A stretch of DNA of 64,000 nt from contig NZ_JALBGV010000006.1 in assembly GCF_023006505.1 (NCBI RefSeq), positions 62,001 to 126,000 on the forward strand, given 5' to 3'. Numbering within the stretch: position 1 is the stretch's first letter; each line of letters starts with the position of its first letter. This DNA comes from Neorhizobium sp. SHOUNA12A. GTDB taxonomy: Bacteria > Pseudomonadota > Alphaproteobacteria > Rhizobiales > Rhizobiaceae. The translations under genes and the position numbers were made by a program. Shown piece by piece: positions 41,330 to 62,710 of the stretch. The notes beneath the pieces were generated by a model. The model worked only from the letters and a program-made list of their open reading frames with translations, ran no database searches and had not been told where the DNA came from.

Positions 41330-41767
41330 ATGGAACCCGATTCACTCACGGTGCCGAAGCGCACGCTGACCGAAATTCTCTATGTCGCCTTCCTCAGGCT
41401 GATCGCGATCGCCTGTTTCTGGTTCGGCCTGCAATATTGGGCGATGCTCGTCGGTTATTCGCTGAAGGGCATGGCCCGCTTCGATCTGCTGACGCTTCCC
41501 TGGAAGGTGGCGGCGTCTTCGCTTGCCGTGCTGTTTCCAGTCGCCTCGCTTGGCCTCTGGCTCACCGTTTCCTGGGGGCCTGTGCTCTGGACGATCGCTG
41601 CAATCTCGCAGGTGTCGATGTATATCGTCTGGCCGGAGATTTTCGGACACAACCGTCTCGTGCCCCTCATGCACGGCCTCGTCGCAGCGCTCTATGTCGT
41701 ATTTCGGCTCTCACTATGGGTCGAGGCGCGCCGCAAGGCGGAGCGGGTAAGAATTGATTCACCTTGA
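41330..41767 (+). CDS. DUF6163 family membrane protein
   Basis: A 145-residue protein with four predicted spans (about 15-38, 50-68, 74-92 and 110-128) and Trp-rich loops, including IACFWFGLQYWAMLVGY and GPVLWTIAAISQ. It matches the rhizobial DUF6163 family commonly encoded just before ldtR. The shared position suggests a function in envelope stress together with LdtR and LdtP, but this is inferred from order only. Confidence 0.8.
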   Translation: MEPDSLTVPKRTLTEILYVAFLRLIAIACFWFGLQYWAMLVGYSLKGMARFDLLTLPWKVAASSLAVLFPVASLGLWLTVSWGPVLWTIAAISQVSMYIVWPEIFGHNRLVPLMHGLVAALYVVFRLSLWVEARRKAERVRIDSP

Positions 41768-41885
41768 AATTAAAGCTTTGACGGCCTGAATTGACCAGAA
41801 ATTCGCCGCTAAGTGATTGATTTATTTTAAATCTGAATGACAGCATCCTGGGCCGGCGAGGGCGGGCCGGAATTCGAACGAACGC

Positions 41886-41901
41886 GTTAAGCGCTTGTTA
41901 A
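41886..41901 (-). promoter_or_regulatory. Full CtrA-type binding site upstream of ldtR
   Basis: On the minus strand the sequence reads TTAA-CAAGCGC-TTAAC, an exact match to the CtrA consensus TTAA-N7-TTAAC. On the plus strand the same bases form a 7-4-7 direct repeat GTTAAGC-GCTT-GTTAAGC (41886-41903), one helical turn apart. It lies about 100 bp before the ldtR start. Binding is inferred from sequence. Confidence 0.6.
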
Positions 41902-41997
41902 GCCTATGTTTTAAGTCGAATTTTATGCGTATTGGATAGTGTCTGTCTCAAGGCGGGAAGAAACAAACACCGCCAAACAAAACAGGATGAGGCAGTC

Positions 41998-42516
41998 ATG
42001 ATGAACACGAAACTGAAGCCGCAGACGGCACCGGCAGTAGCAGATCCGCATGAAGACACCATTCGCGCCCTCTACATGGAATCGCTGCATCTGGTCGAGC
42101 GCCTCCACCGCCGCCTTCTCGATGTGATCAAGGACGAGTTCGACCGCCAGGGTCGTGACGACGTCAACGCCGTCCAGGCGCTCCTGCTTTTCAACATCGG
42201 CAATTCGGAACTGACAGCCGGCGAACTGCGCTCCCGCGGTTATTATCTCGGCTCGAACGTCTCCTATAACGTCAAGAAGCTGGTCGACCTCGGCTTCATC
42301 AACCACCAGCGCTCGCGCATCGACCGCCGCTCGGTCCGCATCAGCCTGACGCCGGAAGGCCAGGCGATCGCAGAAACCGTCGGCAAGCTCTACGAGCGCC
42401 ATATCGGCTCGATCGAAAAGGTCGGCGGCATCGGCGAGGGCGAATTCTCTCAGATGAACAAGCTACTCCAGCGCCTCGACCGCTTCTGGAACGACCAGAT
42501 CCTCTACCGCCTTTAA
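41998..42516 (+). CDS. ldtR: MarR-family transcriptional regulator LdtR
   Basis: A 172-residue winged-helix regulator. It has the LdtR-type N-terminal helix (IRALYMESLHLVERLHRRLL, about 23-42), the DNA-binding half with ELTAGELRSRGYYLGSNVSY and NVKKLVDLGFINHQRSRID, and the beta wing RRSVRISLTPEG. In Liberibacter and Ensifer, LdtR activates the L,D-transpeptidase gene ldtP and affects osmotic tolerance and motility. Here ldtP is on the same strand about 1.1 kb downstream, separated by small leftward genes. Two consecutive ATGs (41998, 42001) serve as start. A CtrA-type site lies upstream, and a long hairpin follows the stop. Confidence 0.88.
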   Translation: MMNTKLKPQTAPAVADPHEDTIRALYMESLHLVERLHRRLLDVIKDEFDRQGRDDVNAVQALLLFNIGNSELTAGELRSRGYYLGSNVSYNVKKLVDLGFINHQRSRIDRRSVRISLTPEGQAIAETVGKLYERHIGSIEKVGGIGEGEFSQMNKLLQRLDRFWNDQILYRL

Positions 42517-42571
42517 TCCACCGGGGGCTTGCGAAACACTCCATTACCTCCAGTCATGCGGTGCTACGCAA

Positions 42572-42609
42572 AAGCGTAACGGGGTGTCGGAAGACGCGCC
42601 GTTACGCTT
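42572..42609. terminator. Long bidirectional hairpin between ldtR and the convergent small gene
   Basis: AAGCGTAACGG/CCGTTACGCTT is a perfect 11-bp stem. It continues after a G/G mismatch into GTGTC/GACGC (one G-T pair) closed by a GGAA tetraloop (GNRA-type). A T-run follows on the minus strand. It lies 56 bp past the ldtR stop and 33 bp past the stop at 42642. Confidence 0.7.
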
Positions 42610-42641
42610 GTTTGCGTGCAAGCCGCTCAGCCGGATCGAGC

Positions 42642-42878
42642 CTATCGTTGGGCGAGCAGGGCGCGGCCGGCGTTTCGGATGGTGAGGGCGGAATCCGCCA
42701 TCTGGGCAATCAAGCCGGCAGTCATCGCTGAGGCGAGGGTCTCGGTATAGTCTTCGCCCTGGAGACCGTGCTTTTTGCAATAATTCTGGACGGCCCCGCG
42801 TGTGGAGGTCGGCGAGACGCCAAACTTGTTGTTCTGGAAAGCATTGACAATAATTTGGTATTTTTCGTCCAGGGTCAC
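42642..42878 (-). CDS. Small protein of unknown function
   Basis: A predicted 78-residue protein (MTLDEKYQIIVNAFQNNKFG, then SPTSTRGAVQNYCKKHGLQG). The GTG start at 42878 has GGAG at a spacing of 7. The even mix of residues and lack of Arg-rich frameshifted look suggest a real gene, probably helical and cytoplasmic. I do not recognise the family. Like its neighbour it points left between ldtR and ldtP, in a stretch with lower GC than the core genes around it, so it may be recently acquired. Confidence 0.6.
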   Translation of the reverse strand: MTLDEKYQIIVNAFQNNKFGVSPTSTRGAVQNYCKKHGLQGEDYTETLASAMTAGLIAQMADSALTIRNAGRALLAQR

Positions 42879-43000
42879 GGTAGCTCTCCAATGGGTGATG
42901 TTTGGGGTGCCTACCAGTATGGGAGCCGGGTTGATAGACGAATTCGGCTATGGGCGTCGGAAATACGTTCCGATAAGTCCGTTTGCGCCGGAATGCTCGC

Positions 43001-43222
43001 CTACATTGTAGCTGCTGCTGCCCGGCGAATCTCGGTCGTCATGCCCGCAAACATCGAGGAGAGGTCGAGCCAGCCGTCTGGTCTGCGGCCCGTCACCTTT
43101 TCCGGCCAGCCGCAGACGCCGTCCTGTTCGACATAACCGACGCATTGCGGGGCGGTCTCATCGCGAAAATGCAGGACGACCAGCTTTCCAGGCTCAAGGG
43201 CTTCGATCGGGTACCAGTTCAA
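43001..43222 (-). CDS. Small protein of unknown function (uncertain start)
   Basis: A predicted 73-residue protein (MNWYPIEALEPGKLVVLHFR, then GYVEQDGVCGWPEKV). No ATG is available; a TTG at 43222 is the best start, with GAGG about 10 bases upstream. The residues look protein-like (hydrophobic strand pattern, a CGWP turn), resembling short phage-type or SH3-like beta proteins, but no family is assigned. It may be a degraded longer gene, because the preceding leftward frame (43219-43479) ends on the overlapping ATTGA. Confidence 0.4.
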   Translation of the reverse strand: MNWYPIEALEPGKLVVLHFRDETAPQCVGYVEQDGVCGWPEKVTGRRPDGWLDLSSMFAGMTTEIRRAAAATM

Positions 43223-43640
43223 TTCTCGTATTCCTCACTTTGACGGTCGACTTTTAGCCAATCCGCTTGTCCCAGGCTTACGGCTTTTACGTTTCCAAAC
43301 GAGGGCTTGCTGTCCAGAATGCCGCGCCGGTTCCGTAAAAGAAGCAGGCCCCGGATCGACGATCCCGCAGCCCGTTCCGGGATCGCTTGCGTTCGCAGGG
43401 TGTGGCGCATATGCCGCCTGAAAAAATCACGTGCCAACACGGCTTTGTGACGCGCAAGTACCTGACACGAATTGGCCATATTGCTATGGGACCGGCTGGA
43501 TGCAACGGGCCGGCGGGAATTCGCGCTTTCACGACATTGCGATGACGACGAAGCCCCCTTGCGGCTGCGCTAACTTTTTGCGCGTTCTTAACCATATCCC
43601 TGTAGGCGTCTTTGATGCTGCTCGGGACCAGATGGGTACT

Positions 43641-44975
43641 ATGATGTCGAAGAAGATCGGATCTGAAGCTCTTTCCCGCCGTGCCTTGCTTCGCACGGCC
43701 GTCTCTGCTGGTGTTGCCGCACTTGCAGCGCCCGCATTCGCCCAGACGGCGATGGATGATCTGATCAATGCGCCTCGCCGCGGAACCTGGGACGACCAGT
43801 TCGACGCCAAGGCCGCATCCAGAACCGCCGTCAATGTCGTCTCCAACAATCCGGTGCTCGGCGCCGGCGGACCGGCGAACATCCAGCAGGCGATCGTAGA
43901 CTACCAGCAGATCGTTGCAAACGGCGGCTGGCCCGAGGTCAATCCCGGCCAGCAGCGCCTGCGTCTTGGCGTCGTCGATCCTTCGGTGCAGCAGTTGCGC
44001 CAGCGTTTGATGATATCGGGCGACCTGCCGCGCGAGGCGGGTATGTCTTCGTCGTTCGACAGCTATGTCGACGGCGCTGTGAAGCGTTTTCAGGCCCGCC
44101 ACGGACTGCCCGCCGATGGCGTGATGGGCGAGTTTACCGTCAAGGCGATGAACATATCGGCCGACGTGCGCATGCGCCAGCTGGGGACCAACCTGGTGCG
44201 CCTGCAGTCCATGTCCGGCGATCTCGGCTCCCGCTACGTCATGGTCAATATTCCGGCCGCCTACATCGAGGCGGTGGAGAACGACCGCGTGGCGCTGCGC
44301 ACCAATGCCGTCGTCGGGCGCATCGACCGTCCGACGCACGCCATCAACTCGAAGATCTACGAGGTCATCCTCAACCCCTATTGGACTGCGCCGCGCTCGA
44401 TCGTCGAGAAGGACATCGTGCCGCTGATGCGCAAGGATCCGACCTATCTCACCCGCAACAACATCCGCCTGATCGACGGCAAGGGTAACGAAGTGGCGCC
44501 GGAAACGGTCGACTGGTTCGCGCCAAAGGCGCCGAACCTGATGTTCCGGCAGGATCCCGGCAAGATCAACGCCATGGCCTCGACGAAGATCAACTTCCAC
44601 AACCCGAACAACGAATACATGCACGACACGCCCCAGCAGGGCCTGTTCAACAAGCTGATGCGCTTTGAGTCCTCCGGCTGCATGCGTGTTCAGAACGTCC
44701 GCGACCTCATCACCTGGTTGCTGCGCGACACAACCGGCTGGTCGCGCCAGGAGATCGAGCGGGTGATCTCGACGCGCCAGAACAACCCGATCAAGCTTGC
44801 CGTCGAAGTGCCGGTCTATATCGTCTACATCACCGCCTGGTCTGCAAAGGACCGTGTCGTGCAGTTCCGCGACGATATCTACGAGCGTGACGGCAACCAG
44901 GAACTGGCGCTGCAGACGACCACCGGCATAGAAAAGCCGGCCGGTGCTGCCGACGACGATCTGCTGCCGCAATAA
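43641..44975 (+). CDS. ldtP: L,D-transpeptidase with peptidoglycan-binding domain (LdtP)
   Basis: Periplasmic enzyme forming 3-3 cross-links or attaching proteins to peptidoglycan. The 444-residue protein has a twin-arginine signal (SRRALLRTAVSAGVAALAAP, then AFA-QT), a PG_binding_1 domain at about 110-170 (FQARHGLPADGVMGEFTVKA) and a YkuD domain from about 195, with the catalytic HDTPQQGLF and SSGCMRVQN motifs (Cys nucleophile at about 350). ATG 43641 (tandem with 43644) starts the signal; 43632 is also in frame. It is the presumed LdtR target. A terminator follows at 45002. Confidence 0.93.
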   Translation: MMSKKIGSEALSRRALLRTAVSAGVAALAAPAFAQTAMDDLINAPRRGTWDDQFDAKAASRTAVNVVSNNPVLGAGGPANIQQAIVDYQQIVANGGWPEVNPGQQRLRLGVVDPSVQQLRQRLMISGDLPREAGMSSSFDSYVDGAVKRFQARHGLPADGVMGEFTVKAMNISADVRMRQLGTNLVRLQSMSGDLGSRYVMVNIPAAYIEAVENDRVALRTNAVVGRIDRPTHAINSKIYEVILNPYWTAPRSIVEKDIVPLMRKDPTYLTRNNIRLIDGKGNEVAPETVDWFAPKAPNLMFRQDPGKINAMASTKINFHNPNNEYMHDTPQQGLFNKLMRFESSGCMRVQNVRDLITWLLRDTTGWSRQEIERVISTRQNNPIKLAVEVPVYIVYITAWSAKDRVVQFRDDIYERDGNQELALQTTTGIEKPAGAADDDLLPQ

Positions 44976-61438: not shown

Positions 61439-62710
61439 TCAAGCGGCGTTGTCGGCCGCAGAGCAGGATCGTCGCTGCGATCGGATGAAACGATGTTCCA
61501 GCGCCACGCAGCCCCAGACGATGCCGAGCAGGAGGTAGAAATGCCGCCAGTGGTCGGTGTCGATGACGTTGCCGATGATCGCATGGCCCAATATCATCAC
61601 CCAGGCGATCATCAGATAGGCCTGCCACGGGCGTTCGCGCAGCATGTAGCGGAAGCCAAACCACAGCGTCGACCAGATCATGATCTGATAGGTGATCGCG
61701 CCGAGCCAGCCATAGGTGGTGAGTGTCTTCAGCCAGATATTGTGCTCGTCCTCGCCGAAGATCTTGCCAAAGGCCATCGGCCCCAGCCCGAGCGGCCGTT
61801 CCATGGCCATCAGGAAGCCGATCTTGTGGCGCTCGAAACGGCCAAGGCGGGCGCCGTCATAGTCCTGCACCAGCTTGGCGCGGTTCGTGAACAGGTCGGA
61901 AACCTGCGGGAACTGCAGCGCGATCGCCAGGGCGAGGACGAGGAATATCGCAGCACCTCCGGCGATCGCCAGGATCTTGAACCGGAAGGCGGTCGTGCGC
62001 TCCTTGAGGAGCATGACGATCACCAGAGCGACGCCGGCAAATATCAGAAGGCCCCAGGCGGCGCGCGAGAAGGACAGGAAGATGCCGAGCGCCAGGATGA
62101 GGATGCCGGCGATCAGCAGCGGCGCTTTTATCAGCGGTCCGGTCAGCAACCGGTAGAGGAGGTAGAGGAGGGGGGCGACGAGATAGGGGCCGAAGACATT
62201 CGGGTCCTGGAAGGCACCCATGGCGCGATTATAGCGGGTGAACACATGCGAGCCCGGAAAGGCGTTGAAATAGCCGAGAACGCCGAGCAGCGAGGTGATG
62301 ATTGCAGCGATGACCCAGGCCTTGAAGATCAGGTTCAGGCGCCGGTGGTCGTTCTCGATGATCGCCGCATAAAAGACCGAACTCAGCGCCAGGAAGGTGG
62401 AGACGGCGAAATACATCGGCGCCTCGCTCATGTCCTTCATGACGAACATGGAGAACAGGCCGCTCATGTTGAACGTCAGCATCATCACCAGAAGCGGTCC
62501 GACGGTACGCGATATCTTCAGGCCGAGCAGGAACCAGATGCCGATCTGGATTACCATGATCAGTTCGTAAGGCGCAGGTTCGGAAATGACGAAGCCGGAA
62601 AGGAAGACGCCAAAAGCGATCAGGCCGGAACCGGCCAGCTTTACGGCCGCCAGCCGGCTGTCGAAACCCACCGGGTGGCCGCCTGCGCGGTTATAGTCGA
62701 GCGTGCTCAA
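61439..62710 (-). CDS. O-antigen ligase / polymerase family membrane protein
   Basis: A 423-residue inner-membrane protein with about ten to twelve spans. The Wzy_C/O-antigen ligase block is RYNRAMGAFQDPNVFGPYLV (about 160-179), with a large periplasmic loop after span nine containing RFERHKIGFLMAMERPLGLG and the conserved FGKIFGEDEHNIWLKTLTTYG (given here in two parts: FGKIFGEDEHNIW and LKTLTTYG). It should polymerise or transfer a surface polysaccharide. It begins 4 bp inside the sugar-transferase gene (ATGA at 62707-62710), so the two are translationally coupled. Confidence 0.9.
   Translation of the reverse strand: MSTLDYNRAGGHPVGFDSRLAAVKLAGSGLIAFGVFLSGFVISEPAPYELIMVIQIGIWFLLGLKISRTVGPLLVMMLTFNMSGLFSMFVMKDMSEAPMYFAVSTFLALSSVFYAAIIENDHRRLNLIFKAWVIAAIITSLLGVLGYFNAFPGSHVFTRYNRAMGAFQDPNVFGPYLVAPLLYLLYRLLTGPLIKAPLLIAGILILALGIFLSFSRAAWGLLIFAGVALVIVMLLKERTTAFRFKILAIAGGAAIFLVLALAIALQFPQVSDLFTNRAKLVQDYDGARLGRFERHKIGFLMAMERPLGLGPMAFGKIFGEDEHNIWLKTLTTYGWLGAITYQIMIWSTLWFGFRYMLRERPWQAYLMIAWVMILGHAIIGNVIDTDHWRHFYLLLGIVWGCVALEHRFIRSQRRSCSAADNAA

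Follow-up and report, generated by a model that had tools for sequence, protein, structure and literature searches.

An exact CtrA consensus match upstream of ldtR in Neorhizobium is the upstream half of an older four-box promoter array

The question raised by the ldtR locus of Neorhizobium sp. SHOUNA12A is whether an exact match to the binding consensus of CtrA, the alphaproteobacterial cell-cycle regulator, places this MarR-family regulator gene under cell-cycle control, as the initial annotation had proposed, or whether the match belongs to something else. L,D-cross-linking is important in Rhizobiales, both to polar growth and to osmotic tolerance. The window that we analyzed is the whole 64,000-nucleotide stretch of contig NZ_JALBGV010000006.1 from position 62,001 to 126,000, and the features discussed below are listed in Table 1.

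The exact match and the array that contains it

A pattern scan finds TTAA-N7-TTAAC on the minus strand with zero mismatches, exactly as had been claimed, at positions 41886 to 41901 (the end at 41903 given in the initial annotation takes in two extra flanking bases beyond the 16-bp match). The match is the only one in the window, where dinucleotide shuffles predict 0.01 (1 of 100 shuffles has one). It lies 97 bp from the ldtR ATG at 41998 and 100 bp from a second ATG at 42001, within the 230-bp intergenic region 41768 to 41997 and upstream of the candidate -10 element, in agreement with the earlier placement about 100 bp before the gene. The product of this gene is LdtR, with an NCBIfam NF047395 score of 291 bits (cut-off 250). 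The only GANTC between positions 41700 and 42000 is at 41756, within the upstream gene.

Table 1. Features of the ldtR-ldtP region (positions within the window)
Feature	Position	Strand	Remarks
Reported site TTAACAAGCGCTTAAC (boxes A and B plus a flanking base)	41886-41901	-	Exact pattern match
Box A, TTAA	41887-41890	+	GTAA in 64/75 other Rhizobiaceae loci
Box B, TTAA	41898-41901	+	11 bp past A
Box C, TTAA then G	41911-41914	+	13 bp past B; used as anchor, so its conservation count is biased
Box D, TTTA	41922-41925	+	11 bp past C; spans about -28 to -25 relative to the estimated start; served in part as anchor
Candidate -10 element, TAGTGT	41937-41942	+	TA-N3-T in relatives; used as anchor
5' leader hairpin	41952-41974	+	Covarying arms, GGCGG (41952-41956) and CCGCC (41970-41974)
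Shine-Dalgarno GAGG of ldtR	41989-41992	+	
ldtR, MarR-family regulator	41998-42516	+	NF047395, MarR_2, HTH_27
TTAACCAT, CtrA half-site word	43588-43595	+	Starts 56 bp upstream of the ldtP ATG
ldtP, L,D-transpeptidase (YkuD) with PG_binding_1 peptidoglycan-binding domain	43644-44975	+	Start assigned from the signal-peptide-like MSKK beginning that relatives share

In the whole genome there are 25 strand matches to TTAA-N7-TTAAC, representing 18 distinct sites at 16 loci, and the backward control gives 23, which indicates that the pattern itself is not overrepresented in this genome. The 7-4-7 repeat form that had been offered as evidence against random AT sequence is there (TTAACAA-GCGC-TTAACGC). 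The shuffle estimate is the wrong test for this site, since an older array already constrains both boxes A and B.

The site is the upstream half of a conserved four-box array in the ldtR promoter. Relative to box C, the boxes start at -24 (A), -13 (B), 0 (C), and +11 (D), above a -10-like TA-N3-T. The pairs A-B and C-D form two similar TTAA-N7-TT.. units whose starts are 24 bp apart, and the identity between the two units over 17 bases is maximal at precisely this shift (7.48 in 105 Rhizobiaceae and 8.06 in 51 other loci, versus 6.59 and 6.75 of 17 at the next best of the shifts from 17 to 35). The downstream boxes differ from the TTAAC form, reading TTAAG (C) and TTTA, TTAG, or TTCA (D). Transcription would start near position 41950, which puts boxes A and B at about -63 to -49, and, as the sequence shows, the C-D unit takes the place of a -35 element above the TA-N3-T -10 box. 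Read in this way, the layout of the array is that of two tandem dimer sites, the second of which would overlap -35.

The perfect array is present in this genome at ldtR only, with one other place at one mismatch; the pattern with one mismatch, at 2 places versus 4 backward-control hits, is no rarer than the control. Similarly, the 17-bp C-D core is found with fewer than 3 mismatches at ldtR only and with 3 mismatches at four other places, and its backward control has nine hits in the genome.

Conservation of the array and of the strict site

We compared the upstream regions of ldtR from a genus set (the 30 loci nearest by score among 57 genomes, the window's own genome included), a named-genome set (the best 80 of 554 relatives), and an order set (29 further loci and 40 stretches hand-picked from the order list). 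The 179 upstream regions reduce to 169 distinct ones. Box C, part of box D, and the TA-N3-T of the -10 element served as anchors for 156 of these; the remaining 13 could not be anchored. Conservation of C, D, and the -10 element is therefore partly built in by the anchoring, in which boxes A and B played no part. The group called other Rhizobiaceae here (75 loci) also contains more distant members of the same genus, a few anchored rows (L134, L135, and L195) look shifted, and the loci are mutually related, so that the counts below are not independent events.

With at most one mismatch to TTAA, box A is present in 21/30 loci of the genus set, 73/75 of the other Rhizobiaceae, and 36/51 from other families, and box B is present in 30/30, 75/75, and 47/51, respectively. 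The best alternative upstream offset gives 1, 10, and 11. When no anchor is used, the strict four-box pattern is found in 16/30, 63/81, and 15/64 distinct ldtR upstream regions of the same three groups. The strict TTAA-N7-TTAA pair is distributed differently. Its conservation in close relatives was the check proposed for the site by the initial annotation, and the pair is found in 16/30 loci of the genus set, 0/75 of the other Rhizobiaceae, and 4/51 from other families, falling to 15/30, 0/75, and 0/51 when the flanking C is included; beyond part of the genus it is not conserved. A strict site anywhere within 300 bp of ldtR is present in 4/64 upstream regions from other families, where shuffles predict 0.2. 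A single base change turns GTAA, which most of the other Rhizobiaceae loci have at box A, into the exact CtrA consensus. These comparisons indicate that the position of the array is old and that the exact CtrA consensus is restricted to part of the genus. A consensus match in a single genome can thus mislead where the site belongs to an older element.

Candidate readers of the array

Our leading, though tentative, reading is that the four-box array is an ldtR-specific, activator-dependent promoter/operator and that LdtR itself is its most likely reader, ranking modestly ahead of CtrA and other response regulators. LdtR dimers on the A-B and C-D units would recruit RNA polymerase, and where box A is TTAA, in part of Neorhizobium, the exact CtrA consensus results and CtrA may bind additionally. 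The association of the array with LdtR's own gene supports this reading. According to the available part of PMC3999280, gel shifts with S. meliloti LdtR show binding to the ldtR promoter region and LdtR is an activator, and binding of LdtR to both the ldtR and the ldtP promoters is described in excerpts of PMC3999280 and PMC5481520. The LdtR operators of Liberibacter asiaticus given in these excerpts have AT-rich ends, as does the array, and the B-C segment of the window, TTAAGCCTATGTTTTAA, resembles by eye the footprint end CCTTGTATTTTAA of that species.

A matrix built from the four Liberibacter LdtR sites ranks the B-C segment 8th of 127966 window positions, yet this match is equalled by 87 of 1000 composition-shuffled versions of the array and by 82 of 500 column-permuted matrices, so that the array has no significant matrix match. 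Over the whole 230-bp region, the best match to the matrix is at 41820 and is reached by 9 of 300 shuffles. Three further results count against LdtR as the reader. Neither the array nor the C-D core is found in any of 108 distinct ldtP upstream regions (170 bp each), and ldtP is a known LdtR target; a paralogue of ldtR has the palindrome TACTTCAATTTTTGAAGTA instead of the array; and the 11-bp direct-repeat geometry fits an OmpR-type regulator at least equally well.

The CtrA reading, in which phosphorylated CtrA would bind A-B, and perhaps C-D as well, and so tie ldtR transcription to the cell cycle as the initial annotation proposed, is partly supported but on balance appears unlikely. Its consensus, its 11-bp spacing, and its promoter position stand, and in these respects, exact match included, the site resembles the full CtrA site TTAA-N7-TTAA(C); it differs from such a site in being only half of a four-box array and in the rarity of its strict form outside part of the genus (4/51 in other families), and the expected strict conservation does not stand. 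The C-D unit lies about where one would place a CtrA box overlapping -35, and the A-B geometry is loosely kept throughout the order. On the other side, C and D depart from TTAAC, the strict site is present in 0/75 and 4/51 loci outside the genus set, and the perfect array is found at a single gene of the genome.

Other loci provide controls. Besides ldtR, 15 have the exact pattern, and from each of 10 of these one protein was scanned. Two of the 16 loci precede CtrA-type targets, with the exact site 346 bp before the rcdA reading frame (PF07323) in one case and 164 bp before a flagellin in the other, which favors CtrA and suggests that the CtrA consensus may have predictive value in this genome. 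In the available text of PMC4433202, CtrA is bound at rcdA, flaA, and ccrM in S. meliloti, with rcdA expression unchanged on CtrA depletion. At rcdA, TTAA-N7-TTAA is at a fixed place in 30/30 genus loci, and order-wide a strict site lies within 400 bp of the domain start in 9/30 loci (30 listed of 92 genomes with a match), where shuffles give 0.12; the corresponding order-wide value for ldtR is 4/64 upstream regions from other families. rcdA also loses strict sites at the order level, but less than ldtR does, which weighs against CtrA at ldtR. ccrM points the other way: although it is bound by CtrA, it has a strict site in 0/30 genus loci, so a strict match is not required and the lack of one does not exclude CtrA. 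Another exact site of this genome is about 1 kb before sciP, and among sciP upstream regions a strict site lies about 1 kb away in 13/30, where it perhaps belongs to another gene.

In PMC4433202, the ChIP-seq study of CtrA in S. meliloti, the main text mentions cell-envelope genes without naming them, and the terms ldtR, SMc01768, SMc01769, MarR, transpeptidase, and peptidoglycan are absent from it; the absence of ldtR counts against CtrA. In L. crescens under osmotic stress, ctrA is down and ldtR is up without significance (PMC8832773, available portion), a pattern that does not favor CtrA as an activator of ldtR in that species. The accessible passages of two Liberibacter papers treating both LdtR and CtrA draw no link between CtrA and ldtR, and those of PMC2877005 and PMC9022086 contain nothing on ldtR. 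CtrA binding at A-B is nonetheless possible in the Neorhizobium clade.

The array also has the form expected for another OmpR/PhoB-family envelope regulator, such as ChvI, binding two direct-repeat units. Operators of this family are generally tandem half-sites about 11 bp apart, with a second unit overlapping -35. The array shares this layout (A-B 11 bp, C-D 11 bp, units 24 bp apart, and C-D near -35), with the proviso that the self-complementarity of TTAA makes direct and inverted readings of the boxes hard to separate. For ChvI in particular, the available part of PMC10659215 reports that JspA, via ExoS-ChvI, inhibits ldtR expression in S. meliloti; this effect is negative, however, and may be indirect, and we consider binding by ChvI or a similar regulator quite unlikely. 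The Brucella BvrR/ChvI motif, of 14 bp, is given as a figure in the portion of its source that is available. The tandem direct-repeat arrangement with -35 overlap is stated for CenR in PMC9275681. CenR itself is improbable as the reader, its printed motifs being TGA-N8-TGA and AgTCAC/GTgAct repeats and the segment 41860 to 41945 containing no TGA, TCA, GTCAC, or GTGAC.

A final explanation takes the array for a core-promoter or DNA-bending element without a dedicated regulator. Its AT-rich, phased TTAA runs are directly above the -10 element, and C and D are nearly invariant in Rhizobiaceae, in part through the anchoring. We regard this explanation as very unlikely, given that A and B lie beyond the core promoter and that the array is not perfectly reused at other genes.

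The ldtR leader and the region upstream of ldtP

Between the -10 element and the ATG, ldtR leaders contain an inverted repeat. We analyzed 82 leaders, which are 88 representatives of the 156 anchored regions minus 6 without a recognizable Shine-Dalgarno-ATG. A perfect stem of at least 5 pairs is present in 63/82 (100 mononucleotide shuffles: mean 4.3, maximum 11), and 58 of these 63 begin 9 to 13 bases into the leader. Counting arm pairs of at least 4, 28 are distinct, and GGCGG/CCGCC is common to 37 leaders. These counts were made without the leader alignment, which covers 56 of the 82 leaders and misaligns the arms of distant rows. Across the order the arms change together while staying complementary in many relatives, which indicates a real structure, most simply an mRNA hairpin near the 5' end. 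The ldtR mRNA would then start just before the hairpin, whose role is probably in mRNA stability. An Rfam search with the hairpin gave zero matches, and a literature search for an LdtR untranslated region in Rhizobium found nothing.

We also looked at pairing between the 5' bases of the leader and the Shine-Dalgarno region. It is weak (rank ≤0.05 at 14/40 and 8/42 loci, with 9 and 0 of 300 partner swaps doing equally well), and we do not claim it, both because of this weakness and because most of that strand is probably upstream of the start site.

At ldtP, the CtrA half-site word TTAACCAT occurs once in the window, where 0.35 occurrences are expected and 32 of 100 shuffles contain one. It lies at -52 to -57 in 23/26 distinct ldtP upstream regions of the genus (of the remainder, two have it near -160 and one is without it) and at -54 to -59 in 18/67 from other Rhizobiaceae and in 0/15 others. 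A TAG or TAA usually follows 7 or 8 bases downstream; TTAACCAT-N7-TAG is found once in the genome, and its backward control has one hit. If CtrA acts on the ldtR/ldtP pair, the TTAACCAT before ldtP would be a better candidate for its site than the one before ldtR.

The available part of PMC11527210 describes CtrA motifs predicted in silico upstream of L,D-transpeptidase genes in Agrobacterium and uses TTAACCAT as the half-site word, with a legend in which both the spacing (N not 7) and TTAACCAT are called atypical. Those motifs precede the L,D-transpeptidase genes themselves and not ldtR, in contrast to the site with which we began. Since that work had already proposed CtrA motifs before such genes, the idea of a connection between CtrA and L,D-transpeptidases is not new.

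Taken together, these elements could constitute an ldtR-specific control in Rhizobiales, made up of a tandem TTAA operator read by a CtrA/OmpR-type response regulator, an mRNA with a 5' hairpin, and, in Neorhizobium and some relatives, the CtrA half-site before ldtP; as a complete scheme this is rather unlikely. If it is true, cell-cycle or envelope-stress signals would adjust cell-wall cross-linking at two levels, that of the regulator and that of the enzyme. The four-box array, the leader hairpin, and the TTAACCAT word upstream of ldtP are short, testable targets.

Several minor features of the region and its relatives were also observed. An inverted repeat at 42572 to 42614 (AAGCGTAACGG and CCGTTACGCTT, followed by GTTTG) is a likely ldtR terminator. 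The gap between ldtR and ldtP (42520 to 43640) measures about 1.1 kb in this genome and in 7 other of the 26 distinct genus loci and 0.3 to 1.0 kb in the remainder, and it is at most 0.66 kb in 56/67 loci of other Rhizobiaceae. In the MarR paralogue of LdtR (39 to 41% identical, loci L292 to L301), TACTTCAATTTTTGAAGTA lies shortly before the likely start and is exact in 8/10 loci; the other 2 differ from it by one or two changes at the center. The locus tag BAB1_0589 denotes a lipoprotein and Atu2133 an L,D-transpeptidase. Finally, upstream of an N-acyl amino acid synthase gene (FeeM, PF21926), one stretch (L144, positions 1932 to 2084) has three exact TTAA-N7-TTAAC matches in the space of 158 bp.
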